A stretch of 64,000 bases of DNA from Cryoendolithus antarcticus (lineage: Eukaryota; Ascomycota; Dothideomycetes; Cladosporiales; Cladosporiaceae), in NCBI GenBank assembly GCA_002077065.1, contig NAJO01000004.1:992001-1056000 (forward strand), given 5' to 3'. Below the pieces are notes generated by a model, which saw nothing but the letters and a program-made list of their open reading frames with translations, searched no databases and was not told where the DNA came from. Positions 8,483-35,818 of this stretch are shown here, one piece after another. Each line of letters begins with the position of its first letter. Positions within the stretch are counted from its first letter, which is position 1. A program made the translations under genes and the position numbers.

Positions 8483-9434
8483 GGTTGACTATCGGTACTG
8501 TTGAGATTGCTGTCCTACCTGTTGAAGGTCCGGGCAGCCCGTCGCCTTTGTAGCTTGCAGTACCTGCATCGTGCTGCGAACTCTGCAGAGCTTGCTCGCG
8601 GCTGAACTGGCTTGACAGCCATACCCCTCCGAGCATCTGGACTCACATGCTTCATGATGCCATCAGTCAGCGGCCCGTCGTACTATTGATTAACAATTAG
8701 CCTGTGCTGTGCATTACGAGGGCGGTCTGCCGGATCTTGGAAGTTCTTGATCATGACAAGCTCAGCTGTGGCGCCTGCCCCTGGTCCTGCCCACTGGAGG
8801 CATTGTATCGATCATACCGATTGCCGCGATAGCTGAGACATTGATCTGGAGCGTTATGATACCCAGGAACAGCTGATCGGCGAGCAAGATCTCCGTCGTG
8901 ATCATGGGAAGCCAATCAATCGAGCTAGGCGTGCAGGAACAACCGGCAGGTCGACTCCACAGCCACGTTCTCCCCGCTTCCTCCAGAGCTTTCTCCAGCT
9001 TCCACATCTGCTCAAGCTCGTGGTGGTGTGGGGACGTCACAATATGCAGGTACGGATATGGAGCGAGAATGGACCGGCTAAAGTGCGAGATCTCGGGATT
9101 GAGGATGCGGCTGGGCGTCAACGGCGAGTCATGTCCACCGCAAGCGTAGTGTGGAGGGATAGCAAGAACAACGGCTGCTCGCATCGCGGTGGTCGAACGA
9201 CATTGTGGCCATGAACCCACTCGCCATCATGCAAAGATGTAGTGAGTGCCAACATGGGCAGATAGCATACGCTCTGGTCCTAGATCCCGGTGCCATCGTC
9301 GCCTGCAATGGCACTCTTCGCCTCAGCGAGTCGAGCATGCCGCTCATATCTCGAATGCTTTCCCTGATCCACGATTCCTACAATGCTAGGTGCTTCGCAT
9401 AACCTAGCTACGTAGCACGATCGAGGCTAATGGA
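8483..9434. other. GH30 promoter region and unassigned sequence
   Basis: About 0.95 kb upstream of the GH30 gene. A minus-strand open frame at 8762-9184 (about 140 codons from ATG) has mixed composition and no motif I recognise; I do not call it a gene. The rest shows nothing clear. Confidence 0.4.
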
Positions 9435-10231
9435 TCAGTCCACAGCCATGGTGGTGTTCGAATAGATCACTGTAGTTGCGTCAGTATCGTACAACACACT
9501 AGGAGCACTATGCAAGAATACGCACGCTTTTTGTCGCATTCAAATGCCGTGCCAGCGAACAGTCCTTTCAGAATGTCATTGACCGTAGGCAATAGAGCGC
9601 CAAGGTGATCGCAAGCGTGCTGAGCATCTCGAATGGCGGCTTTGACAACGTCCATGCTCAGCATAGATTCAAGGCAATGGGCCTGCCAGAGCAGAACGAA
9701 GACTCCGCCGGAAATACGCTCGCAGCCGTCGTCCAGCCACGGGACACTCAGCGAGGTCAGATCTCGAGGCGTAGGCAAAAGGTGGTGGTATGCAATAGCT
9801 CTGCGCACAAGATCGAGGCGATAGATATGTTGATCATGTAGCTGTTGAAGGTAATAGTCGGCGGTGCGAATGGCTGCGAGACATTGCCATGATCCGCGCG
9901 TGTCGCTAACGCGCGCGGCGGCAGCATCGATCTCGCCGAGGAGGCGATGCCAGGCTACTGCCCCGGAGGTATCATTCTTGAAGCTGTCGGCGAGCTTAGA
10001 GATTGTGTTTGTGGGTAAGCAGAATGGCGCTTCGGAAGTAATGCTCTGATCGAACAACCGGGGTGAAGCGGATATTTGTGAGATGTCGGCGAGCAAGCTG
10101 CCGAAGAGCACCACAACATGGGTAAGGCGCATCTCGACGAGGTGTTGAAAATCGTAATAAGCTTCAGATTCAAGCCGGAGGCTGTAGCATACATATAGTC
10201 GGGTACCGCTTTGATGAACATCGAGCAGCAC
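9435..10231 (-). CDS. Regulator-like protein, 3' part of a gene (5' end unresolved)
   Basis: Two 3' exons can be supported on the minus strand: a long one ending at 9526 and a last one 9435-9469 ending in TGA. They are separated by a canonical 56-bp intron (9470-9525; GTGCGT donor, TACTGAC branch site, CTACAG acceptor). The product is helical, with many Leu, Ala, Cys and His residues, resembling the C-terminal regulatory half of fungal Zn2Cys6-type factors, but no zinc cluster is seen in the part I can read. The long exon is open to about 10,258, where a stop intervenes. No ATG lies in frame near its start, so upstream exons are needed, perhaps between 10,240 and 10,560. Alternatively the gene is decayed. 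No function is assigned. Confidence 0.45.
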
Positions 10232-10679
10232 TCCAGAGCCCTTTGTCGATCCAGGTTAAGAGGGAGCAAGCAAACGCTTGACGCATCTTTCCAGAGCCAG
10301 AAGTGTCTAGGGTCCAGACAGATACTAGGATGGAATGGACAGATCAGACATCGTGGAAAAACAGCGAAGCTATTCCCATTGCGACAGCCTGGTAGACCTA
10401 CAGCATCTTGCGCTTTCTGGCCATCAGCAATTTCTTCGCAGTACGTCGATACCGATGAAAGCGTTCATCTCCCCAGACTGGTCAACCAGTATGGCGGCGG
10501 ACAACTTCTCTGCAGCTCTGCATCGAATCTTGGGACGGACTGCGAGATAATCTCATGCACCCTCTAGCAAGCTTGTGCGTGTAGGTGGCCAAGTCTTCAA
10601 ACTCTAGACGCCAGTGGACTTCGCCGCAGCAGGCGTATTGTCCTCGAGCGCATCCCCTGCCCTTGCGCCTGCCGCGATC
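10232..10679. other. Probable unresolved 5' exons of the regulator-like gene
   Basis: Short open stretches exist on the minus strand (one begins near an ATG at about 10,470), but I could not join them to the downstream exon with a convincing splice. Otherwise nothing recognisable. Confidence 0.3.
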
Positions 10680-16568: not shown

Positions 16569-16900
16569 TGTGGCTGTTTCCAAAGCTTGCAGCGTTGGGC
16601 ATTGGCGGCGTGGGCGGAATTGTACACCAAAAGTCTAAGGTGTAGCGATTGGCAGACAAGGCAGCCTTGTGGGCAAGTACTCTAAGAGCTGTATCGGATA
16701 GGCATATGTAGAAAAGCTTTCCACCTTCCGAAGACACTCCCCAATTTGTCACGTGACCTCCTTGTCCTATGACGCCATTGGCCGAGAGTTTGTCATCGGT
16801 AAGTGAAGTTCGCGACTTCGTTCAACGGTGAATCTAACTGTCGTAACGAAGACCAAGATATCAGGGCACTAAGCCAAGGACGCAGTCTCTGTATACCACG
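16569..16900. other. Spacer SEC61 - NFU1
   Basis: 332 bp between two same-strand genes, serving as the SEC61 3' UTR and NFU1 promoter. Nothing else recognised. Confidence 0.45.
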
Positions 16901-17830
16901 ATGTCGACCAAGCCAGCGATGCGTTGCCTTAGCAAGGCACTCCACCGCCCCAGAGCATCCATACCACAACCCACATCTACAGCGATCGCCACGCAGAGAT
17001 GCACAGCACCGCGATGCTACTCAACGACACAATCCGCCGCCTCACCATTATCTGCGCCCAGCAGAAGGCCCCAATATCAGTCCCGGCACCTCCCTGCCAT
17101 TCCGTCACTACAAAGCCGCCGAACGATCTTCATCCAGACTGAGCCGACGCCCAATACGGACGCCCTGAAGTTCAAGCCGAATACGAATGTCCTACCAGAC
17201 TCTTTTCCCTCGACATTCCTCGAGTATACCACACCGCGATCGACGCTCTCGCCTCCACATCCTAGTCCGCTCGCAGCGGAGCTGATGAATGTAGATGGTG
17301 TCAGGAGTGTATTCTACGGGAAAGACTACATCACAATCACAAAAGACGCAGCGACACCTTGGGCACACGTCAAGCCGGAAGTCTTCAGCTTGATCACCGA
17401 GGCAGTGACGAACGGAAAGTCGTTTGTAAACATCGTTCAGGCCAAGGAAGGCGAAGAAGGCCAAGGCAGCTCCGCCTCCGAGGCCGACGCAGTCTTCGAC
17501 CCCGCCGACCAAGAAGTAGTCGACATGATCCTCGAGCTCCTTGAAACGCGCATCCGGCCCGCCATCCAGGAAGACGGCGGCGACATCGAGTTCCGCGGTT
17601 TCGACGCTGAAGGGCAGGTGCTGCTGAAGCTCAGAGGCGCTTGTAGGACGTGTGATAGCAGTACGGTGACGCTGAAGAATGGGATTGAGAGTATGTTGAT
17701 GCATTATATTGAGGAGGTCAAGGGGGTGAGGCAGGTGCTTGACCCCGAGGAGGAGATCGCTATGGCTGAGTTTGCGAAGTTTGAGGAGAAGTTGAAGGCG
17801 AAGCAGGGGACTGTGGAGGCGGCGGCTTAG
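16901..17830 (+). CDS. NFU1: Mitochondrial Fe-S cluster scaffold NFU1
   Basis: Late-acting scaffold delivering [4Fe-4S] clusters to mitochondrial enzymes such as lipoate synthase and complex II. Intronless, 309 residues. Residues 1-75 are Arg/Ser-rich and almost free of acid, ending near SRRTIFIQTEPTPN, a typical presequence. The Nfu N-terminal domain follows (TPNTDALKFKPN ... GVRSVFYGKDYITITK), then an acidic linker, then the NifU C-terminal domain. That domain contains IRPAIQEDGGDIEF and the cluster-binding motif GACRTCDSS, with the CxxC cysteines intact. Most homologues have Pro at the Asp of CxxCDSS; this is a conservative-looking oddity. A second Met at residue 7 could also serve as start. 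Assignment is firm. Confidence 0.95.
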   Translation: MSTKPAMRCLSKALHRPRASIPQPTSTAIATQRCTAPRCYSTTQSAASPLSAPSRRPQYQSRHLPAIPSLQSRRTIFIQTEPTPNTDALKFKPNTNVLPDSFPSTFLEYTTPRSTLSPPHPSPLAAELMNVDGVRSVFYGKDYITITKDAATPWAHVKPEVFSLITEAVTNGKSFVNIVQAKEGEEGQGSSASEADAVFDPADQEVVDMILELLETRIRPAIQEDGGDIEFRGFDAEGQVLLKLRGACRTCDSSTVTLKNGIESMLMHYIEEVKGVRQVLDPEEEIAMAEFAKFEEKLKAKQGTVEAAA

Positions 17831-18393
17831 CGATTGTATGCACGAACGTACAGACGCACGATGTGGTAGGCTGCATGTATTTTGCTCATACCGACCAACC
17901 TTGAGCAAAGCCTCCAAACGATGTCTCTATGGACAACGACCTAGCGCCAGACACCTTTCTACAGCGTATAGTCAGGCTGGTTGCGTATGCAAGCCTTCCG
18001 GCGGCAATTGTGGGTGACGAAGCGCATGGTCATGTGGGTCGGAAGAGATGAGCTACTTGCATGCATCTCATGATGGGTCGGACGGAAGCACGCGCGCGAG
18101 TGACCACAAAAGCGTATCGCTCAACGACGCACGGTAGAGCAGTATGCTGATATATGCCACACTATAATGAGACTTACTCACATAGCCTGTTGATGAGAGC
18201 GTGATCTCTTTCTCAAGCTCTCTCAAAGGCAGGATCAAGAACGAGAGTCTATCGCGATGCAGTCCATACTAGCATCGCCCATCGCCTGGAGCCGTTCTCT
18301 CCTCGTGCACGTAACACGCCAGTTGAGCCTATCATTGCACACATGAAGATACTAAGTACGACTCTTCGATCATGCATTAGGGGTCTCCCATTT
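17831..18393. other. Convergent 3' region NFU1 / chimera gene
   Basis: 563 bp between convergent stops, expected to be mostly 3' UTR. I looked for tRNA-like clover-leaf elements and saw none. Confidence 0.45.
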
Positions 18394-20982
18394 TCACATA
18401 TCGCGTACAAGCCATGCCCGTTCCTTATCGAGTCTTGCTGCTGACGAATGCTGCAACTCCGAGTCCGGCAGCGCATGTGACTTTGACTCAGCTGGTCGAG
18501 CCCGCGCGGCGAGTGTACGCGTTGAGAGCTTCCCACCTGCCACATCTTCCCTGGGCGACGCCCAGGCCCCAGTGTACGCCATCAGTTGTGTTGGATCAGC
18601 ATCGGCCGTCCACGCCCTGTCGTCGACAGCCGGGACCGCGCTGAGTCCGCTCAGGCTATTTATCAGCATTGTTCGATTCTCGGATGCATATCTGGACGAA
18701 GCCCTCGGTTTCGGCAGTGGCTCCGACCTCACGCCCAACGGACTCTTTGCAAAGCTCAAGCGGATTGGCTCATCGGTGCTCTTGTTGAGAGACATGCTGC
18801 CAGAAAACGCATCCAGGGCCTTCGCAGCGAAGCTGACATCCTCAAATTCGACAAGACACGTCGGTCCGCTGTGCTTGGTGCGGTAACACAATCGTCTGTA
18901 GCCTGGCTGCTTGTTGAATAGATTGGCTAGCTCATCTTCAGATGTCTGATCCGAGATGCCATCGACGACAACAGTGTTGCACGGGGGGTTGCGGGCGGGC
19001 GTTAGATTTGGAACATGATCTGGCCGGAAGGCTGAAGTCGCACGTTGGACGGTGTTCGTAGTCACGACCTCGCGTGTATGATGTATCCTGGAACCCTCGC
19101 TCTTCACTTCGTCAACAGTGACACCGTAGGCTGTCCAGCCACGCGCTGTAGCCGCTGCTATTATGTCTGGACTCCCCGTCCCGTTGCTCAAATCCAGAAA
19201 AACTCCACTAACGCCACGACCTGAGCCGCTCTCTTTGGTCCGGGTGTCTGGGCTGTTGCTGCCTAAATATTTGAACAGCGGTGTGATCAGGGCGGCCATC
19301 TCAGTCGGTAGAATGGAAACAATGACGAATGGGGGCGTGATCCGCTTCAGATCCTCGATGCCGCCAACGTGCTGCGTTCGCGAGGTCATAGAAGACGTCG
19401 CTTTGAAGCCAAGAGTATAGATCATTCCGATATTCAGATCGCGCAGTGCGAAGATGGCATCGGCAGCGTGACTCTCTTCCTTAGCAAGTACAACGGCGGC
19501 TCGGTTGCTATAGGCTGATGATACGCACTCTCGTGTCAGCGTAGCTCGGATGCCCTTCCAGATGGCATCGTCCGCGTTAGAGATTGCCTGGGTCGCAACA
19601 TTTTCAGCCATGATATCTGCGTAGCCTAGCGCAGTGCTACGCGATTGACTGTCTTCAGATGCATAGAGTACATTCGTCGGTGGCGGCGCCATCATTAGAG
19701 CTGGCGAAAGATCGATGAGATCTTGGAGTGCGTCTGCTATACCTTCCTCGAATGAGATTACCTCACCGGCGTCGGACACTGCTACATATTCGTCGTCTGG
19801 GCCATCACTATTATCGCTAAGAGCAGCGGCTCGGGCGGCATCTTTGCATAGATTCCGTAGTTCCCTTACCAGATGTGATAGTTCAGAATGCGGCCACTGC
19901 GAGCACGTATCACCGGTCGCATTGATCAAGCGGTTACCCATATTCATCAGCTTTTCCGTTGCCAGGTTCCACGCGGTCTGACCGGAGCCACCGAACAGAG
20001 GAGCCGCCATCTGTGCATCGTGACACCATATCTGTAACATATTCGCAGAATCCCGGAGCCACCGATCCCGCCCCTCAACTCCATTCACTGTAATAACCTC
20101 TCCCATATACTTGTGCCCTTTGGAGGGACCATTCGACCCATCTTCCAGAGCTTCACGTGTGGCTCCCGAACCATTCCTGATAAGGGCCTCGTCATCCTTG
20201 CGACCAGCGCAGTTTACCAGTTCCAGCAGCACACGATGACAGATGTCTGCCAGTCTCACGGCTAGCTTCTTCGCTTCAGACTTGACCTGAGAGGGATTTA
20301 GCGGCGGGCGGGAGGTGATGTCGGCGTGCTCGGGATGCTGGGCCATCATGGCGGAGATCCAGTCGTTGAGGCCGGTGTTCTTGTGGGCGAAGGTCTCGCG
20401 AGCGGAGGAGTAGGCTTGAATCCTGTCGGGAGTGGATTTGATGGCTAGAATTTCGCGTAAGGGTGGGATACGCTGACCGGACTGCTTTGTGGCTGCTTTG
20501 CTAGAGGGCGAAGATGGCGAGGAGTGACTCGGCGGTGAATTCGTGGAGGTAGCGGTGTCCGGTAGGCTGGCACGGAAATCCATAGAAGCGAAGCGGTCGC
20601 CATTGTCACGAGACGCTGTCGTGATTGGAGTGACTCTTTGGAGAGCCATCTGAGAGAACGAAGCGTTCAAGTCGTTTGCTGGGGCACGGGTCAGGGCTGC
20701 ATCCGACTCTCGAGTCTGTTGACGTCGCCAGATGAAACTTCGATCGACAATCCGTTTCTCCGCTAGGTCGTAGGATTTGCATGCTGAGTCCGTCCTCTCG
20801 CAGGGACCACAGCGCGGCAACGTGGTATCGCATCGCGTTCTTCTCTTCCAACAACGTGTGCAAGCCTGGAGTGTAGATCCAGGCAGAGCATCCCCCGCCG
20901 CTGGATCATCCTGGCCCTCCCAGCCTCCGAGTGGGTACCGTTTCGAATGTTTGGGTGCTTCCGGGTAATCCAGAGTGCTCAT
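18394..20982 (-). CDS. Zn2Cys6 + shikimate-dehydrogenase-like + RRM chimeric protein
   Basis: Single uninterrupted 862-residue frame. The ATG at 20982 (MSTLDYPEA) is the first real Met; the frame extends 11 codons further without ATG. Residues 41-68 form a complete fungal Zn(II)2Cys6 cluster with CX2CX6CX6CX2CX6C spacing (ACTRCWKRRTRC...RCGPCERTDSAC). Residues about 100-460 are Ser/Thr-rich then helical, including an LREILAIKSTPDRIQAY stretch. Residues about 469-626 follow the order of a shikimate/quinate dehydrogenase C-terminal domain (AIWKGI; ADAIFALRDLNIGMIY; VIVSILPTE; GVFLDL; ARGWTAYGV). The nucleotide-binding glycine motif appears replaced by AKEESH, suggesting loss of catalysis. Residues about 668-748 are an RRM of the Scw1/Whi3 type (RNP-like LCYRTKHSGPTCLVEFED, then IRLSFAKSPLGVRS). 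A DNA-binding domain and an RNA-binding domain in one protein is unusual. The quinate repressor QutR/Qa-1S family offers precedent for dehydrogenase-like modules in regulators. Role unknown; DNA- and RNA-linked regulation is inferred. Confidence 0.85.
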   Translation of the reverse strand: MSTLDYPEAPKHSKRYPLGGWEGQDDPAAGDALPGSTLQACTRCWKRRTRCDTTLPRCGPCERTDSACKSYDLAEKRIVDRSFIWRRQQTRESDAALTRAPANDLNASFSQMALQRVTPITTASRDNGDRFASMDFRASLPDTATSTNSPPSHSSPSSPSSKAATKQSGQRIPPLREILAIKSTPDRIQAYSSARETFAHKNTGLNDWISAMMAQHPEHADITSRPPLNPSQVKSEAKKLAVRLADICHRVLLELVNCAGRKDDEALIRNGSGATREALEDGSNGPSKGHKYMGEVITVNGVEGRDRWLRDSANMLQIWCHDAQMAAPLFGGSGQTAWNLATEKLMNMGNRLINATGDTCSQWPHSELSHLVRELRNLCKDAARAAALSDNSDGPDDEYVAVSDAGEVISFEEGIADALQDLIDLSPALMMAPPPTNVLYASEDSQSRSTALGYADIMAENVATQAISNADDAIWKGIRATLTRECVSSAYSNRAAVVLAKEESHAADAIFALRDLNIGMIYTLGFKATSSMTSRTQHVGGIEDLKRITPPFVIVSILPTEMAALITPLFKYLGSNSPDTRTKESGSGRGVSGVFLDLSNGTGSPDIIAAATARGWTAYGVTVDEVKSEGSRIHHTREVVTTNTVQRATSAFRPDHVPNLTPARNPPCNTVVVDGISDQTSEDELANLFNKQPGYRRLCYRTKHSGPTCLVEFEDVSFAAKALDAFSGSMSLNKSTDEPIRLSFAKSPLGVRSEPLPKPRASSRYASENRTMLINSLSGLSAVPAVDDRAWTADADPTQLMAYTGAWASPREDVAGGKLSTRTLAARARPAESKSHALPDSELQHSSAARLDKERAWLVRDM

Positions 20983-21462
20983 CTTCGCTTCCTCGAGCTT
21001 GCCCTCCCGAGGCAACTTTCAGGCTCGCACTGCAATAATCAATCTGGACGTACGTATGCTCTCGTGTAAAGGTGCCGTCATGTTGATGCTTCTGTGAGCG
21101 CGACTGTTCAGCATATGTGCTCAACAACACAAATGGGAGAGGTCTCGTCATGGCGCGCGTGAGGCTAAGTTGCTTCGCCACCACCATTTGAGGTACCTTG
21201 CGCGGTCCATAGAACAAGGCCTCACATACGCACTGCAACCAAGCTCAGAGATCTCCCACCATAGCTCTGGGTCTGCTCACTGTAGAACCCTGCGCATCAT
21301 CGCCTGCATTGCGCCCCGATGGCATCTGCTCCTCTCCAGCGCACCGACGATGCTATGCTTGATTATTAACGATACGCGAAGCTCTTTAGACCTCACAAAA
21401 GGGTCTGCAAGAGCTACTGATCCGACGCCTCGAAGTACAATAGATCCGCTACTCGCTGCACA
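20983..21462. promoter_or_regulatory. Divergent promoter, chimera gene / DUF7580-like gene
   Basis: 480 bp between the ATGs of two head-to-head genes of unusual type. It must carry both promoters. No specific factor sites can be asserted by eye. Confidence 0.45.
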
Positions 21463-23431
21463 ATGGAGGTCGCTGGCGTGGTACTTGGTGCAGTGCCGAT
21501 TATGATCGAAGCGCTGAAGGCATGGAAGACAGTGGGGCGTACGCTGCGAACACTTCGAAGCTACTCGAGGGAGGTCAACCGAATACATGATCGACTACGA
21601 GTACAGCAGTGTCTCTTCGATAGTGAGATCGAAACATTGCTACAATCAACATCTTTGGGCGCAGATGTCGTTCGGGCAATGCTCGACGATCCGAGTGACC
21701 ATGCTTGGACAACTCCATTCGCTAAAAGCAACATTGCGTCCGTCCTAGCTAGGAACGCAGACATCTACCGCGACCTCATGCAGAGCATTCTGGGCGAACT
21801 CGGGTCGCTACAAAAGAAATTGGGTAGTTTTGATCAGGCCTTAGCTGCGCAGAAAAAGTCTGTAAGTGTGACAATAATCTCGTGTAAACGCTGTTCCGCT
21901 GCACCACGCAATCGACGTCTGCAAGGCAGATGGACACATTATCAAGCGAGGCTGATCAGACAATAGAACGATACGTTGAGAGACAATGTGACACGCCTCA
22001 GGAGTGCCATGAAGCTCAGCTTCAACAAGGCGGATTACGAGAAGCACATCGAAGCCATCCGGGACGACAACGCAGATCTGCGAGCCATCAGATCCTACAG
22101 TTACCAGCCATCCTCTCGGCTGGTCGTCTCTTCTGAGCTTCCGCCGAGCTTCCCGAAAGCCCGGAAAGCAATCAAGGCGCTCTATGAAGCCCTAGACGGG
22201 ACTTGGTCATGTTCGGATGCTGGGCACGTCCGGCATGCTGCGAAGCTCTGCCTTGAAGCAGAAGTGGGAGAGGACGTCCGGCTTGACCTCGCCATAGCGT
22301 GTACTAGCACTGCAAGTTCGCCGCCGGAGCCTTTATGGCTCTATGTCCGATCTTCGACCAGCGTACCAGCTTCGCAGTTGCCTCCCAACGCTGGTGGCAA
22401 CGCAGGGCCGAACGCGTCGGCAGTTGGCTCTACAAGTCGCGATCTTAAGACATGTCCAAGCGTATGCGAGACCCTCTCCCAGTGTCGCTGTCCCACAAAT
22501 TCCGAGGAGTGCCTCGGCTACGTAGAGGGCTCAGATCGACTCTCCCAGCAGCCCCTACGACACGACTTCTTCCACCAATGCGTGTCGAAGCGACCATCGC
22601 CCTCCATGATGACAGAGCGCACTGCAACTGCGGTGCTAGAGACGACACCGCAAATCTCGGTGGAGGATCAACTTCGAATGGCGCACTCCATCGCGAAGGC
22701 GGTGCTGCATCTGTTCGAGACGCCGTGGATGGCAGATGAGTGGAGTTTGAAGGACATATCGATGTTCCTGGCGAATGGGCAGCAAGCTGGCGATGCTTTG
22801 GGTACGTCGCACCGTAGCATTGAAGACGGGCGTGTTCTGCGACTGACTTCCACTAGACACTATGCACATGACTACGCTGTTCCGTGAGACACGAGCGTCG
22901 CTCCAAGCACCTCCAGCGACTCAAGTAGGGCCGGCTAGCTCATCTTCTAGCTTGCAGTCGCCCTCTTGCTCCGACGAACAGACACTTTATGGCGTACCAA
23001 ACCTCATCCTGTAAGTTTCCTCAATGAAGCAAATCAGTGTTGTCCGCCTGCGCTTGGGTGCCTTGTCCACTAGGGCAGTATTCCCAGCTCATGTCGCATG
23101 GACGTCCCAGCGACTGGCTGTACCCGACCTTCTTACTGACCGCCCGCTCCTACACAGCTTCTCCCTCGGCGTCGCCCTCCTCGAGATTGCCCACCGCGCA
23201 CCCCTCGAGACTTTCCGCCGCCCAAATGACAAGAACAATTTCTACACTGCTCGCCGCCTCGCTCAAAACCCCAGCGCGCTAGGTCAACGCTACCAAAGCA
23301 TAGCTCAAAAGTGCCTGCAATGCGACTTTGGCATAGGAAATGAGTTGCGAGGGCAGGACCTGCAGGGAAGAGTGTACGGCGACGTCGTGGGAGGGCTGGG
23401 GAGGATGGTGGAGGTCATGAGTATTGCGTAA
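21463..23431 (+). CDS. DUF7580-like protein: HeLo-like helical N-terminus and degenerate kinase-like C-terminus
   Basis: Four exons (21463-21861, 21967-22801, 22857-23010, 23158-23431) give 553 residues. The N-terminus MEVAGVVLGAVPIMIEALKA and the following amphipathic helices match the fungal family labelled DUF7580 / prion-inhibition-and-propagation type, related in layout to HeLo domains of heterokaryon-incompatibility proteins. The C-terminal part (LFSLGVALLEIAHRAPLE, then CLQCDFGIG) resembles the end of a protein kinase fold, but catalytic HRD and DFG motifs are not seen, so it is probably a pseudokinase. The middle is a variable Ser/Pro-rich region. The last intron (23011-23157) is 147 bp; a retained exon inside it is possible but breaks the conserved reading. 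The stop lies 20 bp from that of the convergent WD40 gene. Function in self/non-self recognition is a family-level inference. Confidence 0.75.
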
Positions 23432-23451
23432 CATTCGTAGTACTACTGGCG

Positions 23452-26400
23452 TTATGTAGCAGGCCTTTCGGCTAGTGTGATATGCTGCATCGCGCCGGAA
23501 ACGGCTTCCATCTCCTCTGCTTGCTTCGTCCCCGTTCCTTTCGTCATGTGCAGCATCGAGGCCGCGAAGTCCTCGGAGTCGGTCGCGGGGGCCATGGAGT
23601 TCGCACTGCTCTTCCTCACCTCAGTCTCAATGTGTTCTTTGATCCGCTCATCTAGCAGCCCGACCAGCTTGTCGCTGGCTTCGTCCAGCAGCTTTGCCAT
23701 TACGCCGTCGTTGTTGGACTTGACTTGTGTGCGCTCGGCTAGCATTCGAACAGTGAGCTTCAGCTCTCGCTCTAGATCGCGGAGAACCTCCGGCGAAGGG
23801 TCGTCCGTTTGCGCGGACGCAGTAAGACGCTTGCGATAGGCTCGTAGAGAGCGAGCTAAGGAGGTTGTCGAGGAAGAGAGACTGCCAAATGTGCTTGGTG
23901 TAGCCCTCGTATCTGAAGGGCTGGCTTTGATGCTCGGCAGAGACGAGTCTTTTGTGACATTGTCGCTACTCTTCGTTCGCAGGTTGGCCATTGACCGACG
24001 GCGCATCGTGGTACTCTGTTTCATTGTATTACGCGGGCTTGGAGGCGAGGGCGAGCGATGTCGCACGGTCTTGCGACGCGGAGACTCGGGTTCTGGACGC
24101 GGCGCTGGGACAATGGAGACTCGAGATGTCTTTCGGCGCAGTCGCTGGGGCGAAGCGTTGAGATGGATGGAAGGCGACGACGGCTCGCTCTCTTCGCCTG
24201 AAGCGCGTCGACGAAAGCGGGAGAGCTCGGTATGCGATATGACCTTGCGGAGTGGTGGCGCTGAGACCGCATCTTCTCCGAACGCCGCTGAAAGACCATT
24301 GATCGTGAACGACTCCGGCGGGGGAGGGCCGTTTGGCTTGGTGTCCCAGATGAAGATCGTGCTGTCTGCGGCTACTGTCACAAGCCGTGCTAGATTATTT
24401 TGACCATCGGGATCCACATCGATCAGTGCAAGGTCTGTGATACCCTCGGTGTGCCCCCAATCTCGAGCTATGAGAGAGCCGTACTCTGTGTACAATCGAA
24501 CAGATTTGTCTGTGCTCGACACGCCAGCAATCGTAGGACAGCCATTCAAAGATGAAGCGTACGCGATCTTCGAAAGCACAGCTGCCTCTCCGCCGTCAGG
24601 GTCTGAGCACTTGAAGGAGAGACTGCACTGTCCATTCTTCAGTCGGTATCTGCTGATGCATCGATCGACAGTCGCAATCAGCAAATCATCGTCACCAGCT
24701 AGGCACATCGATGTGGGCGTTGCTTTCAGTGTAACCGTCCGCGAGATCGCAAACACCAAGGTCTCGGATTGACCTGGGTCTCGCATGATGCCCTCTCGAA
24801 CCACGACAGATCGATCAGCAGCGTGTGTGATCAGTCGCTTGTTGTTGAAGTCGAAGAGCACTCCAGTCACTGCGCCTGCATGTTCATCGAGCGTCTGCCG
24901 CAAGGCCAGCTGCCCGTCGATGCACGTGAACACCTGGACCATCCGATCCCGACCAGCAGTGACCACCAAGTCGATGCCTCCTATTGAAGAGGTAGTGATC
25001 GCGGTTATCTCGGAGGAGTGAGCACGGGCATGATGTAATACAGTCCCGGTGGATTGGTCGAGGATGGACAGTACGCCTAATTTGTCGCCACATGCAAGCC
25101 ACTCGCCCGCGGCACTGGCGGCGACGCACTTCAACTCGTTCATCGCGTCACCGACGCCATTTCCAGGCGGTATATATGCCTTGAGCTGTAAAACCAGGGT
25201 ACTAAGTGCGTCCCAGAGTCGTATCACGCCGTCAGCCGAGTATGTGAAGCATCGTGCAGCGTTGCGGCTATTTGGCCGAACGCCCGCGATACCCAGTATG
25301 GAAGTATTGTGAGCTGGCAGAGCGATGCTACGATCTTCGGCGGAAGAGAGACTGTCATATTGTATGGAGATGCCGTGTTCGCCAGATAGCTTGACGACAG
25401 CATCTCCGACCAGGCAAGCAGCAATTACTGCGACGCTGGTGATTGAGGCTCTTGCGACAGCCATCGTTCGGCGTCGATCGCGACTAGATGGACGAGACGA
25501 GTTGAGATACTCATCCGAAATTAAGGTCTCTTCTTGTCCTGTGATACCGTGCAGATGTAGCGTGCCTCGACCATCAAGACATGCAGCGCTGATCGCAAAA
25601 TCCAGGGCACTGACTAGAGCAAGAGTCTGCGCCCCTTGTATATCACTGAGCAAGCAGACCTCGCCTGCCTCGGCACACACAATGGCTTGGGTATCGGAGA
25701 GGGAAACCACAGCGATGAAGTTACAGTCCAGCAGATCGCCGAGCAAACTATTCCTGCCGGACAGCGTGCGATGCCTTGGGCTCAGAATGCTGTTACCGAA
25801 CTCTGACCCCCGTATGCTATCGCGATGTCGAGGTGTGAGGAAGCTGACGGAAGACACCTCGACGTTTCGAGGTTCCACAGACTCATCGCAAGGTCTCCAG
25901 ACTTTGACGTACCGCAAGCCGACAGTGACGAGAAGATTGCCTACCCAGGCAATGGCGCTCGTTAAAGTGGTGAGCTTATTGCTGGCATGGAGTGTTGGAA
26001 TACCAATTTTGTCAACGTTCCAGATGAAGAGGAATCCATCATTGACAGTACCAAGTGAAGCCAGGAATCTGGAATCCGGACTGAAGCGCAATGCATGCAC
26101 TCCAAAGCTATGCTCAGACAGAATTGCGATTGGCTCGTCACATTGTTCGCCCTCAAGTGAGAAGATGACAATGCGAGGCTTGTACCCAGACTCGCCCACT
26201 GCCAGCCACTTCCCGTCAGGGCTCACAGCGACAGATGTCGCAGCCTTGACGCGATCCTTTGCTGTCGTCGACTTACCAGTGGGCGAATCTGACCAGTCAC
26301 GTCCACTCGAAGCTAGTGGAGAGCCACCCAGGCTCTTTTCCTTGACATGTCCCAAAGCTCTATGTCGAGGCTCATTCGGCGTTGGCGAGGCATGCCAACC

Positions 26401-26709: not shown

Positions 26710-28151
26710 CCTGGCTTCTTAATTCTTCGTCTTCGGCGATGTCGCGTGTGTTGGTACATGTGACTGCTATTGGTGTGCAAGACGCTCATTGCTTTGGTCG
26801 CATGGTCGTGGCTGCAATGGAATGCGGTTGTGCTGCCCGAGAGACGCCGACAAGCCACCTAGAAGCTTGTCCGTTGCGCATTCATGAGATTGACTATAGT
26901 GAGACTAGACAATAATGCCCCTATGTTCGGGCAGCTGAGTATCACTGTAAGTACATAGATGTACGCAAAGTCGAATCGCGATGACGGCCGTGGAGCTGCA
27001 AGGTCAACAAAAGTTGGCTGCAGATGCCAAGAGGCATTGAAGTTGTAACAGACGCGTGCCGCCATTACGAGGGTTCCTCTGCACGACAATGACGCTATAC
27101 CACCTAACAGCATATGGATGCTTCAATAGTGAGCCACAGGGACGGCGGTCTCATGGACTAATGCGTGGGCTGGCCTGTTCGATCGCAGACGAACGCCGTA
27201 CTCGTTCGCGTCTGCGCTCCCTGGATCGGTATGGGGGCTCGACTACTGCGAGCAACACAACACAGATTCCGTTTGACGCGATGATCTCCAACATCTACCA
27301 TCGTACGTCGCAATCAGACGCTAGCGAAGATGGAGCACTGCCCTGCCCCCAGAGAAACTTCCGTCGTCTTGTGGTAAGTGTTGCTCGACTGAAGTCCCAT
27401 CGGAAACTACCCGGCATGCCGACAGCAATGGCAATGACAGCCGCAAGTCAGCAGTAGCGACCAGGGCTAGGCATTGTCACGACCAGTTCCAGCTACGGAA
27501 ATTTGTCAATATACTCGGCCATGCGGATGACCATTCGCGTGAGCACGCGCCAAGCAGCTCCATGTCCCCGCAGTGCACGAGATGACGGATGGAGGGGTCT
27601 TGTTGATCAGCCTCCACTCCGAGAGCATGTCGATTGAGGAGAAATCGCATTTACCGCCTCTGCTAAGCTGGATGCTCGATGTAGATATACTCTCAAGCTG
27701 CTCGATAGGTACGCGTAGCTTCTCATACGATTTGTTGTGACACAGGAAGACGATTACGAGGCGAGATCCAGCAAACCCACCTAGCTCGCTCACGCGATCC
27801 TTTTAACCGTACCGTAGACCGCTGCAGCCCTCAAATCCACCTCGGACGACGCAATAACTTACTGCCGTATCGAGCCGTCTGGCCTGTTCCTAGCTCTGCA
27901 CGCAATTTGAGAAACGATATTAGGTTGCGTACCTGCACTTCCACTGGCAACTTGATCGACTCATCCTTTTGCTTGACCTGCTGTCAGGCGTAGACTTCAG
28001 CTACTCGGACAGTGAAGTGTGAATAGCGAGTGCAAGCTTGCAAAAGATCGAGGTTCCGGCGACCGCATAGTGTGGCAAGCTCACATAGCTACAGTACTCG
28101 AAATTCCATCGCGTGCGGCACAGCTGCTTGAGAAGCTGAGAAATCGCAAAG
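26710..28151. other. Long divergent intergenic region, WD40 / ACS
   Basis: 1.44 kb between divergent genes. A plus-strand frame at 27056-27457 begins in sequence with no coding signature and has no recognisable domain; I do not annotate it. The large size fits a regulated acetyl-CoA synthetase promoter (FacB and CreA control is known in Aspergillus), but I did not verify binding sites. Confidence 0.4.
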
Positions 28152-30264
28152 ATGTCTGAGGGCGACGTAGCACCGCCCAAGCCGGCGGTGCCAGAGGCGC
28201 ATGAAGTAGACACATTCCACGTACCAAAAGCGTTCTTTGAGTAAGTTTAGCCCACAGATTCAAGCAAGCTCCCATATTGACAGCACCCCAGGAAGCATGG
28301 CTCTCCCCACCTCAAAGATCTCGACGAGTACAAATCCCTCTACAAACAATCCATCTCCGACCCCTCAGCCTTCTGGGGTAAGCAAGCCCGCGAGCTCCTC
28401 TCCTGGCAACAAGACTTCGGCCAAGTCAAGTCCGGCACTCTATCCAACGGCGACACAGCCTGGTTCCACGGCGGCAAGCTGAATGCCTCTTACAACTGCG
28501 TCGATCGCCACGCCTTCAAGAACCCAGACAAGCCAGCCATCATCTACGAAGGCGACGAGGCGAACGATGGCCGCACGATCACCTACGGCGAGCTGCTGCG
28601 CGATGTCTCGAAGTTGGCCTGGACACTGAAGGAGATGGGCGTCAAGAAGGGGGACACAGTCGCGCTCTACCTCCCCATGATTCCAGAGGCTCTCGTAGCT
28701 TTCCTGGCACTCACGCGTATCGGCGCCGTGCACTCCGTTGTCTTCGCGGGTTTCAGCTCCGACTCCCTCCGCGACAGAATCATCGACGCAAAGTCCAAAG
28801 TCGTCATCACGACCGACGAAGGCAAGCGCGGCGGCAAGCTCATCGGCACCAAGAAGATCGTCGACGAGGCGCTCAAGCAGTGCCCGGATGTTACGCACTG
28901 TCTTGTTTACAAGCGCACTGGCGCCGATGTGCCATTCAAAGCCGGACGCGACTTGTGGTGGCATGAAGAGATGGAGAAGTGGCCTGCGTACTATGTGCCG
29001 GAGACGATGGACTCGGAGGACCCGTTGTTCCTGCTCTACACGTCAGGATCTACCGGCAAGCCGAAGGGCGTCATGCACACGACTGCTGGGTACTTGCTCG
29101 GTGCTGCCATGACAGGGAAGTACGTTTTCGATATCCATGATACTGATGTATTCTTCTGTGGTGGCGATGTGGGGTGGATTACAGGGCACACTTATGTGGT
29201 GTATGCGCCGCTGTTGTTGGGTGTGGCGACTGTTGTTTTCGAGGGAACGCCGGCGTACCCTAACTTCAGCCGATACTGGGATGTGGTGGCGAAGCACAAG
29301 GTCACGCAGTTCTACGTTGCGCCCACCGCGCTGCGTCTGCTCAAGCGCGCCGGCGACCACCATGTCAAGGAGATGAAGGATCTGCGCGTTCTCGGCTCAG
29401 TTGGCGAGCCCATTGCAGCAGAGGTCTGGAAGTGGTACTTCGACGTTGTCGGCAAGGAGCAGGCACATGTCATTGATGTAAGTACACCTGCTCGTCCTAA
29501 TGTCTCAATACTCTTCACTGACAGCATCACAGACCTACTGGCAAACCGAAACCGGCTCCCACGTCATCACGCCCCTCGCCGGCATTACTCCAACGAAACC
29601 CGGCAGCGCCTCCCTCCCCTTCTTCGGCATCGAGCCCGCGATCATCGACCCCGTTTCCGGCGAAGAAATCCACGGCAACGACGTCGAGGGCGTGCTGGCT
29701 TTCAAGCAGGCCTGGCCATCCATGGCACGCACAGTCTGGGGCGCGCACAAGCGCTACATGGACACCTACCTCAATGTTTACAAAGGGTACTATTTCACAG
29801 GCGATGGCGCTGCGAGAGATCATGAGGGGTATTACTGGATTCGTGGCCGTGTGGACGATGTGGTCAACGTGTCTGGGCATCGGTTGAGTACTGCCGAAAT
29901 CGAAGCAGCGCTCATTGAGCACCACGCTGTTGGCGAAGCGGCGGTGGTTGGTATCAATGACGAGCTCACTGGCCAAGCTGTCAATGCTTTCGTGTCCATC
30001 AAGGATGGCAACGAGATCAACGACGCCCTCAAGAAGGACTTGATCATGCAAGTTCGCAAGAGCATCGGGCCTTTCGCCGCGCCCAAGGCGATCTTCTGCG
30101 TGCCGGATCTACCCAAGACGCGGTCTGGGAAGATTATGCGAAGGATTCTGAGGAAGATTCTGGCTGGGGAGGAGGACCAGTTGGGCGATACGTCGACGTT
30201 GAGTGATCCGAGTGTGGTGGATAAGATCATTGAGAATGTCAAGGAGAGTCGGGTGAAGAAGTAG
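28152..30264 (+). CDS. facA: Acetyl-CoA synthetase
   Basis: AMP-forming ligase making acetyl-CoA from acetate, ATP and CoA; needed for growth on acetate and for nucleocytosolic acetyl-CoA. Three exons (28152-28240, 28292-29477, 29533-30264) give 668 residues, the standard length. The start [13 protein letters not shown] is the first ATG; the first splice restores FFEKHGSPHL. Signatures present are [11 protein letters not shown] (279-289), [34 protein letters not shown] (just after the second splice) and [11 protein letters not shown]. The C-terminal [11 protein letters not shown] contains the catalytic, acetylation-prone lysine (K625). All key residues are intact. It has no targeting peptide, so it is cytosolic/nuclear like FacA. 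The second intron (29478-29532) lies in the codon junction Asp-Thr. Confidence 0.97.
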
Positions 30265-31190
30265 AGGGTGATGGGGGGGAGAGGGAAGAATGGGGTGTAG
30301 CTAGGAGAAGGGTAGGGAAATGAATGAATACTTCCGATTTCTAAATGTCAAGTCTCAGGAGGATGTGACTGATGACACGCTGCCGCCATCACAACGCGCT
30401 CATTCATCGCGGGAGTCTGCAGTGGAAGGTGCGTATGCGCCTCAGGCATGCTCGCACTTCCTTCATTCCAGACACGAGACAGGTGGATACTGCTGTTATG
30501 AGCTGGTCCGGGACGTGATCGGGTATATAGTCGTATCGCCGAGGTCACGTGAAAGGCGTGGTGGATTCGGCGAAGGACGCGCAATGCAGAGGCTGACCAA
30601 GAGGCTTGGCTGCGTAGCAACCGGGAAGCTCGGCCGCGGAGGAAAACAGTCAAGTCAAGAGCTGGGTGCTGGCGAGTGTGTCGCGGTCTGCGTTTGCCGA
30701 CGACAGAATCGTTTGTCGTGATACTGTACGGCGATGCTGCATATTTAGTAATTGTAGGCTGTATCAAGTGCAAGGATTGCCCATGAGGACAAGAATAAAC
30801 ACAGTAAGGCTGAGACAAAGTACGCGCTTGCCCTCTCTCGGATGGCCGTTGACATCTATGCCGAGTGTGCTTGGCCGAACAAGGCTGTGTAATCGGCAAG
30901 CCGCCATGATCGAATGACCATTCTACTAACTCACCCAACTCCCGAGCATCCAACTGCCTTACCTTACCTTACCATACACTTCCAGACCAAGAGAGATTGA
31001 CAGACTACTAATATCTCCCTATCTGTCAATCCCTACCTTGAACGATCCCGATCCGCTGTCCGCCTCACATGCCTCTGTTCGGCCATTCGTTACAACCCAC
31101 ATAGCAAACCCGACCTAGATACTACGCAAGCAGCCGTGCACGACAGCAGAGCACGACTTCTCGCGACTCCGTTACGCACATAGCGTAGTT
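30265..31190. other. Intergenic region ACS - ADAM
   Basis: 926 bp between same-strand genes. It includes a short CCTTA-type pyrimidine repeat (TGCCTTACCTTACCTTACC, about 30,956-30,974). Several frames below 135 codons on both strands lack coding character. Otherwise nothing seen. Confidence 0.45.
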
Positions 31191-33674
31191 ATGCGCCTCT
31201 CCCCCTCGCTCCTCCTCACCCTCGCCGCCACCTTCCTCACAGTACACGCCAACAGCCGGACCCGAAATCCCATAGGCGCGCTATCCCGAGTACAGAATGC
31301 CACAATACACACCCACAACCACCGAATACATGCCCTGTCCGACTTCGAACTAAGCTTCAACTTGAGAGAGGATCTTTACGTCAAGCTCAGCCTGTCACCG
31401 AACCACGATATCTTGGCGCAGGATGCATCGATATCCTACCTTGCGCCTGATGGGACCATCTCACAGCGGGAGACAGTGGATCGGTTGAGTCACAAGGTGT
31501 TCAAGGGTACGGCGTGGGTGCAGAGACCGAAGGCTGGGCAGCATGGCTGGGAGCGGGCTGGATGGGCAAGAGTGATGGTCACGCAGGATGGACGGGAACC
31601 GGTGTTTGAGGGTGCCTTCGCGCTGGAGCATGACCACCACCATGTGCAGACTTCGTTCAATTACATGCGGACGAGACATGGGGAGGACCCGGAGATTGAG
31701 CTGGCACGCCAAGGCGAGGAGTATATGGTTGTGTGGCGAGACTCGGACATCTTGAGTGATGCTGAGGTGGCGACAGGTCATGGCGATTTGCGGAGAGGAC
31801 TGCAAGAGGAGGAGGCACCGGTCTGTCAAGCGGACAGGCTGGTCTTCAACATGCAGCCTGATCACCCCGTCTACCTCGGCATGCGGAAGCGAGAGTCAGG
31901 ATCTTTCGGTGTCATCGACTTCTCGAGGAACATGTTCAGCAAGCGTCAGACGGACTCGACCACTGGAGGCAACAGTGCTGGTGTCAACCTGATCGCTAAC
32001 ATTGGCAAGACTTATGGATGTCCAACGACTCGCAAGGTGGCGCTCGTAGGTGTAGCGACAGATTGCACTTACACTGCCGACTTCAATTCGACACAGACTG
32101 CACGCGACAACGTCATCCAGCAGATGAACACTGCATCCGCCGTCTGGGAGAACACCTTCAACATCTCGCTCGGTCTGCAAAACTTGACCGTATCCGACGC
32201 CACATGTCCCGGCACGCCCGCACAGGCTACGCAATGGAACCAAGGCTGCAGTGACAACGTCGACATTCAAGCCCGCCTGAACTACTTCTCAGCCTGGCGA
32301 GGTACCCTGAGCGACAATAACAGCCACTGGACCCTGCTTTCTACCTGCAATACTGACACAGCTGTTGGCCTCGCCTGGCTTGGGCAAGCTTGTGTCAACT
32401 CAGCCATGACTGCCAATGCCTCCACGACTGGTAATGGACAGTCGACAGGTGGGACTGAGACTGTCGCCGGCGCGAACGTCGTAATACGCACCCAAGGTGC
32501 TGCCGAATGGCAGATTATCGCCCACGAGACAGGCCATACCTACGGTGCCGTGCACGACTGCTACTCTGCAACATGCGCGAACCAGCAGATCGTCAATGCT
32601 CAGCAGTGTTGCCCGCTCTCCTCGTCGCAGTGCGATGCTGGCGGCCGCTACATCATGAATCCATCCTCCTCCCAAGGCATTAGCACCTTCTCTCCTTGCA
32701 CGATAGGCAACATCTGCAGCGCCATCGGCCGCCGCTCAGTAAACACCGACTGTCTCTCCAACAACCGCGAAGTGACCACAATTTCCGGCCAACAATGCGG
32801 TAACGGCATCGTTGAGACAGGCGAAGACTGCGATTGCGGCGGCACAGAAGGCTGTGGCGATAATCAGTGCTGCGAGGCTACGACCTGCAAGTTCAAGTCC
32901 ACAGCCGTCTGCGATGACAGTAACGAAGACTGCTGCCGCTCCTGCCAGTTCGCTTCAAATGGCACGGTCTGTCGCGCCTCAACGGGCTCCTGCGACCCGC
33001 AAGAAACTTGCTCTGGCACCTCTGCGCTCTGCCCAAAAGACGTCAACGCCCCGAATGGCGACAGCTGCGGCAACAACCTCCAGTGTGCTTCCGGACAATG
33101 CACGTCCCGTGACCAGCAATGCAAGACAGTAATGGGTTCTTACACGCAAGGCAACGATACCTACGCCTGCGACTCCTCCGGCTGCATGATCTCCTGCGCC
33201 TCGCCCGAGTTCGGCATCGGTCAATGTCTCGGCTTGCAGCAAAACTTCCTCGACGGCACGACCTGTGGCGGTGGAGGCACTTGTAACAATGGCCAATGCA
33301 AAGGCTCCTCCGCGGGCGGGCAGATCAAGTCGTGGATCGAAGACCACAAAGCCATCGTCATAGGCGTCTGCGCTGCCATCGGTGGTATTCTGCTCTTCTC
33401 TATCCTGGGCTGCATCACGCGGCGATGCCGGAGGTCGAGGAAACCTAAGCACATGCCGCCGCAGGTCCCGCCTGGAGGCTGGCAGGGCTGGAACGCACCG
33501 CCGCCACCTGCAGTCATGCATCAAAGCCGAGGTTACGGCCAGCGGAATGTGCCCATGCCGCCGCCTATGGCGCAGCATCCTAGTCAGGGGTGGTTCCAAG
33601 GCGGTGCGCCGCCGCAGGGACCTGGGTACGGGCCACCGCCGCCCCCTGCGAGCTATCGAGGGAGATACGCTTAG
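31191..33674 (+). CDS. ADAM-family metalloprotease, membrane-anchored
   Basis: Zinc metalloprotease of the fungal ADAM group. Intronless, 827 residues. A signal peptide (LSPSLLLTLAATFLTVHA) is followed by a pro-region of ~270 residues ending near basic MFSKRQ, a likely kexin site (KR). The reprolysin domain contains the complete zinc motif HETGHTYGAVHD from about residue 445 and a downstream IMNPSSS Met-turn. A Cys-rich disintegrin domain runs from about residue 534 (QQCGNGIVETGEDCDCGG) and a Cys-rich region follows. One transmembrane helix sits near 721-742 (AIVIGVCAAIGGILLFSILG). The cytosolic tail is Arg-rich, then Pro/Gly-rich with PPPP runs that could bind SH3 or WW domains. Fungal ADAMs are documented but poorly understood; sheddase activity at the cell surface is inferred. 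Confidence 0.93.
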   Translation: MRLSPSLLLTLAATFLTVHANSRTRNPIGALSRVQNATIHTHNHRIHALSDFELSFNLREDLYVKLSLSPNHDILAQDASISYLAPDGTISQRETVDRLSHKVFKGTAWVQRPKAGQHGWERAGWARVMVTQDGREPVFEGAFALEHDHHHVQTSFNYMRTRHGEDPEIELARQGEEYMVVWRDSDILSDAEVATGHGDLRRGLQEEEAPVCQADRLVFNMQPDHPVYLGMRKRESGSFGVIDFSRNMFSKRQTDSTTGGNSAGVNLIANIGKTYGCPTTRKVALVGVATDCTYTADFNSTQTARDNVIQQMNTASAVWENTFNISLGLQNLTVSDATCPGTPAQATQWNQGCSDNVDIQARLNYFSAWRGTLSDNNSHWTLLSTCNTDTAVGLAWLGQACVNSAMTANASTTGNGQSTGGTETVAGANVVIRTQGAAEWQIIAHETGHTYGAVHDCYSATCANQQIVNAQQCCPLSSSQCDAGGRYIMNPSSSQGISTFSPCTIGNICSAIGRRSVNTDCLSNNREVTTISGQQCGNGIVETGEDCDCGGTEGCGDNQCCEATTCKFKSTAVCDDSNEDCCRSCQFASNGTVCRASTGSCDPQETCSGTSALCPKDVNAPNGDSCGNNLQCASGQCTSRDQQCKTVMGSYTQGNDTYACDSSGCMISCASPEFGIGQCLGLQQNFLDGTTCGGGGTCNNGQCKGSSAGGQIKSWIEDHKAIVIGVCAAIGGILLFSILGCITRRCRRSRKPKHMPPQVPPGGWQGWNAPPPPAVMHQSRGYGQRNVPMPPPMAQHPSQGWFQGGAPPQGPGYGPPPPPASYRGRYA

Positions 33675-34441
33675 GAGGAGTTGAAGGGGAGGTTTGGGTG
33701 GGGGAGCGTGGGGTGACATGACCTTGGGTTTATGACTTGCATTTTGGTGTTCTATGTATTTTGGTTATGAGGAGAGGGAAAGGGGGTGTATAGAGAGCAT
33801 ACCTGCATTGGACTGTACAGGATCAAAGACTGGTAGAACTCTGCATGATAGCCGTTGGTATAGAACGTACAAAGCTATGAAGTCGAATCCCGACATTGGT
33901 ATACTGTGGACTAACGTTGTCGCTTCTTATGCTTTTAGTCGCCTGATCATGTGATGCTCATGCCTGAACGCCGTCGCTGAATTTTTGATATGTGGTACCA
34001 GGAGCCCAACAGCTCGTGGTCAAAAGCTAAATCACCTCGTTGCGCCGTCTGCAGGAATTGTCGCTGTGCTGCATGCGCTCCTTTTGAGCAGGCCGCCGTT
34101 CTGTTCGCACGGTCCGTGGTCGTCTTCGATGTGAAATTAAAGATGTCGACAGCCGCTAGCTCGCGCTCCAAGCGAGCGACTCGTTTGGTGGCAGTGAGGT
34201 TCAGTGAGGTAGGGAAGGAGCGCTAGAGGGTGGTGGTCGTGTGGAAGGCACGTCCCTGGCCTCTTGTAGTGGGTCGAGAGAGGCGCTGGGCGACGACAGA
34301 GAACTAACACCGATGCGTATGCGTCCGAAGACAATAAGAACACTCGTCCCGCTGATCGGCGTCCTCACAGACAGTCGCAAGCCTGTCGAAGCTCCTATTG
34401 GCGATACGCGTGAGAGCGGGACTTACGCGATGAGCATTTGC
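33675..34441. other. Convergent 3' region ADAM / glycine-zipper gene
   Basis: 767 bp between convergent stops, longer than UTRs need. A GTCGAATCCCGAC string near 33,882 prompted a tRNA check, but no acceptor stem or anticodon arm pairs around it. No gene is called. Confidence 0.4.
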
Positions 34442-35227: not shown

Positions 35228-35818
35228 GGCAGCGTAGAGGGCGGGGAGCTGGGTCAGGAAGGGGAGGGCGGTGGTCAGATGGGAGAGGAGGAAGGGGAGT
35301 AGCATGATGGGGAAGGGGAGGCCATTGTAGCTGCTGTCATGATGAAGGTGTTCAATGGCTTGAGACGGGGTCGAGAACAGGAAAACACGTGGGAAGTTGT
35401 ACACAATGAGACGTCATGGCTCGGCTTGCTTGTGTGGGGCCGGGGGAGAAGTCCAGACCCTGGGACTTTATAGTGGGGTCGATCAATCGTGCCTTCAAGG
35501 TGACCTGACACTTCGTCTACCTTTGGTTCATCAATATCCATCGCTCCGCTCGCATCGTAGCGTCGAAGGGGCCATTGATGGAAGTCGTTGCCATCGTTGC
35601 CGTTGTTCCTGGCACAGCCCAGTATACACGCGTCCGTCCTCGTGTGTCAGCTCTTGGCCTGGTGTACCTTCCGGTGGAGGCTGAGCCAATTGCCATGCGG
35701 ACGAGATGCCTCACAGCCTGAGGGAGACCATACCAATCATTGCCTTCATCCCAATCTGTTCGGCGATCTCTGTGTGTTCTCAGTAAGTCTGTTCTTGGGT
35801 TTCGTCTGTACCGCGACC
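35228..35818. promoter_or_regulatory. Divergent promoter region with three CCAAT boxes
   Basis: 591 bp between divergent starts. Three CCAAT motifs on the plus strand lie at 35,686, 35,733 and 35,751, upstream of the ATG at 35819. They are candidates for the HAP/CCAAT-binding complex. The plus-strand frame is also open from 35,588 without an ATG, so part of this may be transcribed leader. Confidence 0.4.

Follow-up and report, generated by a model that had tools for sequence, protein, structure and literature searches.

The stretch of DNA analysed here, hereafter the window, comprises 64,000 nucleotides of Cryoendolithus antarcticus (C84:992001–1056000) from an assembly of 46.97 Mb in 149 contigs, to which all contig labels used below (C24, C69, etc.) refer. 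Its minus strand carries, at 18394–20982, an open reading frame (ORF) of 862 codons that runs from ATG to TGA with no internal stop; in 300 first-order Markov (Markov-1) sequences modelled on the 7-kb region and read on both strands, the longest open frame was 358 codons and the mean 188. A preliminary description of this DNA held that one coding frame joins a Zn2Cys6 cluster, a stretch resembling shikimate dehydrogenase (SDH), and an RNA recognition motif (RRM), and this was borne out. Its further claim that neither stop nor intron interrupts the frame held for stops; a single regular expression picked out one intron-like pattern of 92 nt at residues 751–780, at the end of the RRM, where splicing is possible. 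The ORF is in all likelihood a multi-donor mosaic, judging by its pieces, which resemble four or more other genes in this genome. This origin, together with an unalike homeologous locus on C24, describes the gene better than does a three-part sensor.

A search of the genome with the ORF protein, using a tool that scores the best candidates only, listed 12 matches, of which one is the ORF itself and the remaining 11 each cover only part of it. The Zn2Cys6 piece (residues 22–104; 20671–20919, minus strand like all pieces) matched C95, C63, C139, and C58, and the closest relative among the matches listed is a Fungal_trans regulator at C95/C63, with 39% amino acid identity. Residues from 119 or 123 to 233 matched C112 and C78, where the relative is a gene of about 1600 amino acids; the piece itself, residues 129–231 (20290–20598), is 84% identical in amino acids to the C112 copy and 73% to the C78 copy. 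Residues 228–476 matched C24, and the core within them, residues 228–461 (19600–20301), is the only part seen in common with the homeologous C24 gene (37% identity in a local alignment and 41% in a second alignment). The piece corresponding to the Rossmann half of SDH, residues 466–622 (19117–19587), matched a QutR/TanX-like protein at C69 and C107 (about 60% amino acid identity), and the RRM piece, residues 658–758 (18709–19011), in which two aromatic residues of the RNP motifs are replaced, matched the RRM of a gene at C109 and C59 (49% over 100 codons). Nothing else in the genome matched the tail, residues 759–862 (18397–18708), at E ≤ 1. The similarity extends to DNA, with 310 bases of the ORF 83% identical to C112 and 463 bases 69% identical to C69, and the limits of the pieces are sharp, similarity to C112 stopping at RPPLNPS, where the core begins. 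The core appears specific to the locus: no further match besides C24 was listed in this genome, no Pfam family was found (E up to 10 for the ORF, E up to 0.1 for the C24 frame), and no PDB chain matched it.

The relatives look like ordinary genes. That of the Zn2Cys6 piece at C95 carries a Fungal_trans domain (Pfam, E 2e-21), and the C78 relative of residues 129–231 is a 1602-amino-acid ORF without a Pfam match. The pieces differ from their nearest relatives by 16–60% in protein sequence, which excludes a misassembly that simply joined sequence of the relatives themselves. Control proteins from the same window behaved differently. Homeologs on C24 were found over 793 of 807 residues (93% identity), 827 of 827 residues (98%), and 1084 of 1085 residues (89%) of three such proteins. 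The 807-residue control also had 15 partial matches elsewhere in the genome, all inside residues 399–601, as expected of one common domain; the 827-residue control had none, and the 1085-residue control had three, all weak (E 2.8e-5 to 6e-4). Several separate strong pieces occurred in none of the three. Of the four proteins of the window that were searched in depth, only the one from this locus showed a multi-donor ORF.

Profile searches of the translation support two of the three domains. Cysteines 41, 44, 51, 58, 61, and 68 form an exact CX2CX6CX6CX2CX6C array with basic residues between them, in agreement with the perfect cluster reported earlier at residues 41–68, and Pfam Zn_clus matched residues 39–77 (E 4.8e-5) above its curated cut-off. 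RRM_1 matched residues 671–733 (E 1.6e-6), likewise above its curated cut-off; a third match, RRM_occluded, fell below its own, and nothing else exceeded a cut-off. Neither an SDH family nor DHquinase_I was returned by Pfam, Fungal_trans (PF04082) gave no match at E up to 10, and NCBIfam gave none at all. Single-sequence structure models were of low confidence, with mean pLDDT 34.5 for 306 residues and 48.4 for 251 residues of the core, which was modelled as mostly helical.

The aromatic residues of the RNP motifs stack on RNA in canonical RRMs. In the ORF, the RNP2 tyrosine is replaced by valine (NTVYVGNL in the C109/C59 relatives, NTVVVDGI in the ORF) and the RNP1 phenylalanine by leucine (CFVEFED in the relatives, CLVEFED in the ORF), so that ordinary RNA binding by this domain seems doubtful. 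Among PDB chains, the nearest to the RRM were U1A (E 0.0013) and Mec-8 (E 0.0066). The RRM placed at about residues 668–748 by the preliminary description is thus upheld by the RRM_1 match, whereas its Scw1/Whi3 type is a name that we presume for the C109/C59 gene and that no sequence search returned.

Assignment of residues 466–621 to SDH rests on an intermediate, since direct searches of Pfam, and of PDB with the stretch alone, gave no SDH match. The intermediate is the protein at C69/C107, 60–62% identical over 156 codons, whose residues 112–635 align with the AROM structure 6hqv (E 1.2e-66) and which has a type I dehydroquinase domain (Pfam DHquinase_I, E 9.5e-52). The proposed link to quinate-type repressors and AROM modules is thereby confirmed, and the segments said to follow SDH order at about residues 469–626 prove to be SDH-derived for the Rossmann half only. 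Clear similarity begins at the ADDAIWKGI stretch, and only the cofactor-binding half can be recognised. An extension of the match to residue 407 was set aside; residues 407–465 show 15 identities over 55 residues and match the C24 core better. An active shikimate dehydrogenase has a glycine-rich cofactor loop and catalytic lysine and aspartate residues in its N-terminal half; here the loop is replaced and the N-terminal half is not recognisable. As the substrate half is not recognisable, a shikimate or quinate pocket is unlikely. The replacement of the glycine motif by AKEESH was reported correctly, but it is not particular to this gene: both relatives read ASEESY, where AROM has VGSGGT. The loss is, as this alignment indicates, inherited, and would mark the AROM-derived repressor family if the two relatives are typical of it. 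The relative is probably QutR- or TanX-like. A perfect Zn2Cys6 motif was seen by eye near the AROM-like C69 gene, where tblastn gave a weak match, and Pfam found no family in the 458-amino-acid frame beside that gene. In Aspergillus niger, the activator and repressor genes for the use of quinate, galacturonate, and tannic acid lie next to each other, and the related repressors are hypothesised to be inactive proteins that bind the inducer (PMC10512348).

The ORF lies between an NFU1-type iron-sulphur scaffold gene on its left (16901–17830, plus strand; Nfu_N and NifU domains) and a divergently transcribed DUF7580 gene (21463–22887, plus strand), which is made up of two frames (21463–21966 and 21976–22887) in neither of which a HeLo or HET domain was detected (Pfam, E ≤ 0.1). 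The window is largely collinear with C24, with which it was compared by blastn over 15–2201 and 3073–58534; DNA identity is mostly 85–88% but drops to 81% or about 71% in some segments. A genome DNA search tool reported no homeolog for window positions 28001–46000, yet blastn finds one there, mostly at 86–88%, and absence in that tool is therefore weak evidence. Collinearity breaks at the end of NFU1 (17833), whose product is 96% identical to that of C24 over 275 codons, and resumes at 23155. Between these flanks of 85–88% identity, the block at 17834–23154 retains three diverged islands of 126, 342, and 606 bases (76, 77, and 68% identity). The 5' part of the DUF7580 gene (21463–21963) had no other match listed in the genome and is missing from the C24 copy.

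On C24, the partners of the core are instead a Myb-like, a C2H2-like, and a bHLH piece, with relatives at C62/C1 (Myb-like), at C84:595k, C24:907k, and C141 (C2H2-like), and at C83/C144 (bHLH). The bHLH piece is the only one of these with a Pfam match above cut-off (E 2.8e-11). Its DNA similarity continues past the stop codons of the relatives' frames, and the material captured at the C24 locus was therefore probably DNA and not spliced RNA; the ORF in the window gives no such sign. The C24 gene appears to be broken. No ATG precedes 480746, a position deep within the core, in its core frame (an upstream spliced exon is possible), and its C2H2-like piece is divided between two frames. The C24 DUF7580 gene starts mid-protein about 110 bases from the core, and a single deletion that removed the 5' ends of both genes would best explain this arrangement. 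The region 16800–24500 has no clear transposon ends; the repeats found there are five families of short direct repeats, three pairs of short inverted repeats, and two minor tandem rows. One inverted pair (18 nt, 89%) has an arm in each flanking gene, at a distance of 4883 nt.

Some side observations concern the rest of the window. At 9115–10654, compared with C24:490613–492160, about 1.54 kb on each side has no detectable DNA similarity between alignable ends; in the window, the minus strand of this stretch contains an open frame of 262 codons. A 745-amino-acid frame at 35588–37825, with hydrophobic stretches seen by eye, is about 40–72% alike in translation to its C24 counterpart in surroundings of 85–88% identity. 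The 827-amino-acid protein used as a control (31191–33674; 98% identical to its homeolog) resembles, by eye, a metalloprotease of the ADAM type, with a cysteine-rich part like that of disintegrins.

The ages of the pieces were compared through synonymous divergence (dS; Nei-Gojobori, with 400 bootstraps each, and 200 each for three further window genes); values above about 1 are near saturation and their bootstrap ranges are wide. Between C84 and C24, dS is 0.55 (0.42–0.72) for NFU1 and 0.38 (0.33–0.44; right flank), 0.49 (0.41–0.57), and 0.79 (0.67–0.92) for the three further genes, as compared with 1.60 (1.09 to cap) for the core and 1.35 (0.91–2.65) and 1.42 (0.78 to cap) for the DUF7580 parts. 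The core and DUF7580 gene exceed both flanking genes in divergence and constitute an old, unalike haplotype block. Relative to their nearest relatives, the pieces differ among themselves: dS is 0.64 (0.39–0.98) for residues 129–231 against C112, 1.09 (0.80–1.71) for the SDH piece, 1.83 (1.04 to cap) for the RRM, and 1.46 (0.90 to cap) for the Zn2Cys6 piece. The homeolog pairs of the relatives are closer to each other (0.19 for SDH, 0.30 for Zn2Cys6, and 0.32 for RRM), which places the separation of these three pieces from their relatives before the two subgenomes parted. Residues 129–231 are about as old as the C112–C78 split, dS over the second half of the piece being 0.62 between mosaic and C112 and 0.74 between C112 and C78, with overlapping ranges. 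Against their own relatives, the C24 pieces have dS values of 0.80 and 0.76 (bHLH) and 0.85 and 1.09 (C2H2-like), with the Myb-like piece saturated. Pairwise omega for five pieces of the ORF was 0.14–0.38, and in neutral simulations that assumed half of each dS, the probability of meeting no stop was 0.17 for residues 129–231, 0.016 for SDH, 0.02 for RRM, 0.05 for Zn2Cys6, and 0.0005 for the core.

The C112 and C78 copies of the ~1600-amino-acid gene are mostly 80–98% identical per 100-base bin. One bin drops to 61%, the lowest of the others being 72 and 77%. This bin belongs to the first half of the piece that the gene has in common with the mosaic, and it may be a conversion patch. Overwriting of C112 by the mosaic was considered and dropped: dS between mosaic and C112 is equal in both halves (0.65 and 0.62), so C78 may be the odd one.

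The favoured explanation, with a probability of roughly 0.68 that bears mainly on origin, is a chimeric regulator-like gene built stepwise by ectopic recombination, an adaptor or competitor role being included. Ectopic recombination would have fused pieces of unrelated genes onto a resident core gene between NFU1 and the DUF7580 gene, the pieces joining at different times. The mosaic origin is supported by the 11 partial matches and their sharp limits, the full or near-full-length homeologs of the controls, the different assembly on C24, and the dS values that differ by piece. The protein, if made and nuclear as supposed, might dock on DNA through its Zn2Cys6 cluster, perhaps as a monomer, given that the Fungal_trans domain of the relative is missing. 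DNA docking would be the most to expect of it; the half-SDH derived from a repressor and the RRM with its lost aromatics could serve as protein-contact modules. The protein might then act as an adaptor or competitor of the regulators that gave its pieces, a role that is tentative and somewhat less probable than its absence.

Several points weigh against this explanation. The role just described is drawn by inference only. The 39% match of the Zn2Cys6 piece to C95/C63 is the best in a large family, of which C139 and C58 match too, and two labels on C24 are weak, the Myb-like label coming from below-cut-off Pfam matches of the C62 relative and the C2H2 label having been given by eye without a Pfam match. 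Low omega and absent stops do not prove selection on the fusion, because a piece may have diverged in a working paralog before it was fused, and the order of capture is soft because dS is close to saturation above about 1 and bootstrap ranges are wide. The locus may be dispensable, given its broken-looking homeolog. Other unalike blocks exist in the window (9115–10654, 35433–38135, and smaller ones such as 33883–34436).

The alternatives overlap in part with the favoured explanation, and their likelihoods are not meant to sum to one. A join of two or more genes through assembly or frame reading is highly improbable: the separate families of the pieces and the intron-like pattern near the tail would fit it, but pieces this different from their nearest relatives lie in one open frame whose flanks are both collinear with C24. 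A real but minor possibility is a fixed old architecture, present in many fungi and undescribed, with the homeolog rearranged in this genome. The SDH, RRM, and Zn2Cys6 pieces are about equally distant from both homeologs of their relatives, consistent with such early separation, but the core has no further listed match in the genome and the C24 copy has different partners. It is rather unlikely that the ORF is a non-functional relic, in which gene fragments stand by chance in a long open frame that is unexpressed or unneeded. The state of the homeolog, without an in-frame ATG before 480746 and with its C2H2-like piece over two frames, the loss of hallmark residues in several pieces, and the tail without a match speak for a relic; all six zinc ligands are kept, however, and 862 codons remain without a stop despite the divergence of the pieces, the neutral probability of which is 0.0005–0.17 per piece, with the proviso that divergence may predate fusion. 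The model of the preliminary description, a DNA- and RNA-binding regulator with a dead SDH core as ligand sensor, is improbable. Its modules are present in one frame, and the related repressors are hypothesised to be inactive and inducer-binding (PMC10512348), but the unrecognisable substrate half and the replaced RNP aromatics leave the sensor and the RNA binder as the weak parts of the model.

Two further alternatives concern the locus as a whole. It could be an old balanced, idiomorph-like locus with two anciently diverged haplotypes, as at fungal allorecognition loci, in which captured pieces would act not as regulators but as recognition baits; this seems unlikely. Synonymous divergence of the core and DUF7580 parts exceeds that of NFU1 and of all three further window genes, an excess that is suggestive of a het locus in this one genome, and the alignment ends at NFU1 and restarts at 23155 around unlike assemblies on the two contigs. 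Ancient balancing selection is reported to leave footprints of narrow extent at incompatibility genes (PMC11138114), which would accord with such a block. Against it stand the broken-looking C24 copy, the 807-residue control, whose dS of 0.79 touches the lower DUF7580 range, the further unalike blocks, and the absence of HeLo and HET matches (Pfam, E ≤ 0.1) from the neighbouring frames; fast local evolution, moreover, raises dS too. In a broader form, the interval from NFU1 to the next conserved gene would be a domain-collecting locus, where a core arranged head-to-head with a DUF7580 gene repeatedly took up regulator pieces (Zn2Cys6, AROM-derived repressor, RRM, Myb-like, C2H2-like, and bHLH) and gave rise to anciently diverged, idiomorph-like haplotypes whose pieces are baits that report interference with host regulators. 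The integrated decoy domains of plant immune receptor pairs offer a parallel for this bait function. As a whole, this reading is a long shot.

If real and expressed, the mosaic gene would provide a readable case of how parts from at least four gene families come to make up a new regulator, the homeologous site holding a sister that was assembled differently. One organism would then suffice for testing how multi-domain regulators originate and whether ectopic recombination feeds one locus repeatedly, and such fusions could be tested as adaptors, competitors, or recognition baits. Among the open-licence papers listed in literature searches, none showed a case of the Zn2Cys6-SDH-RRM combination or of a mosaic fungal regulator, which does not amount to a claim of absence from print.

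Among known systems, the ORF resembles Zn2Cys6 Fungal_trans regulators in its six cysteines at exact spacing with basic residues between, and differs in having no Fungal_trans domain, which is common in that class, though not universal, and present in the C95 relative. Its likeness to the QutR/GaaX/TanX repressors derived from AROM lies in residues 466–622, which group with a protein aligning to the dehydroquinase-SDH part of AROM, and in an SDH-like stretch with a lost glycine motif; the C69 relative, moreover, lies near a Zn2Cys6 motif, as in the A. niger modules (PMC10512348). In those repressors, kinase-like, dehydroquinase, and SDH-like parts follow in order, whereas the Rossmann half of SDH is all that can be recognised in the ORF, where a Zn cluster and an RRM are fused to it. 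With the Scw1/Whi3 proteins, as we take the C109/C59 gene to be, it shares the RRM and the stretch after it (LSFAKSPLGVRS in the ORF, LSYSKNPLGVRS in the C109/C59 relatives), and it departs from them in having one RRM piece only, with the RNP2 tyrosine and RNP1 phenylalanine replaced. A further parallel is the class of chimeric or mosaic genes formed by ectopic recombination or transposon capture. The present case differs from that class in that pieces related to seven gene families surround one core across two homeologous loci, with no clear transposon ends, and agrees with it in that pieces of several genes, each with separate relatives, stand in one open frame.

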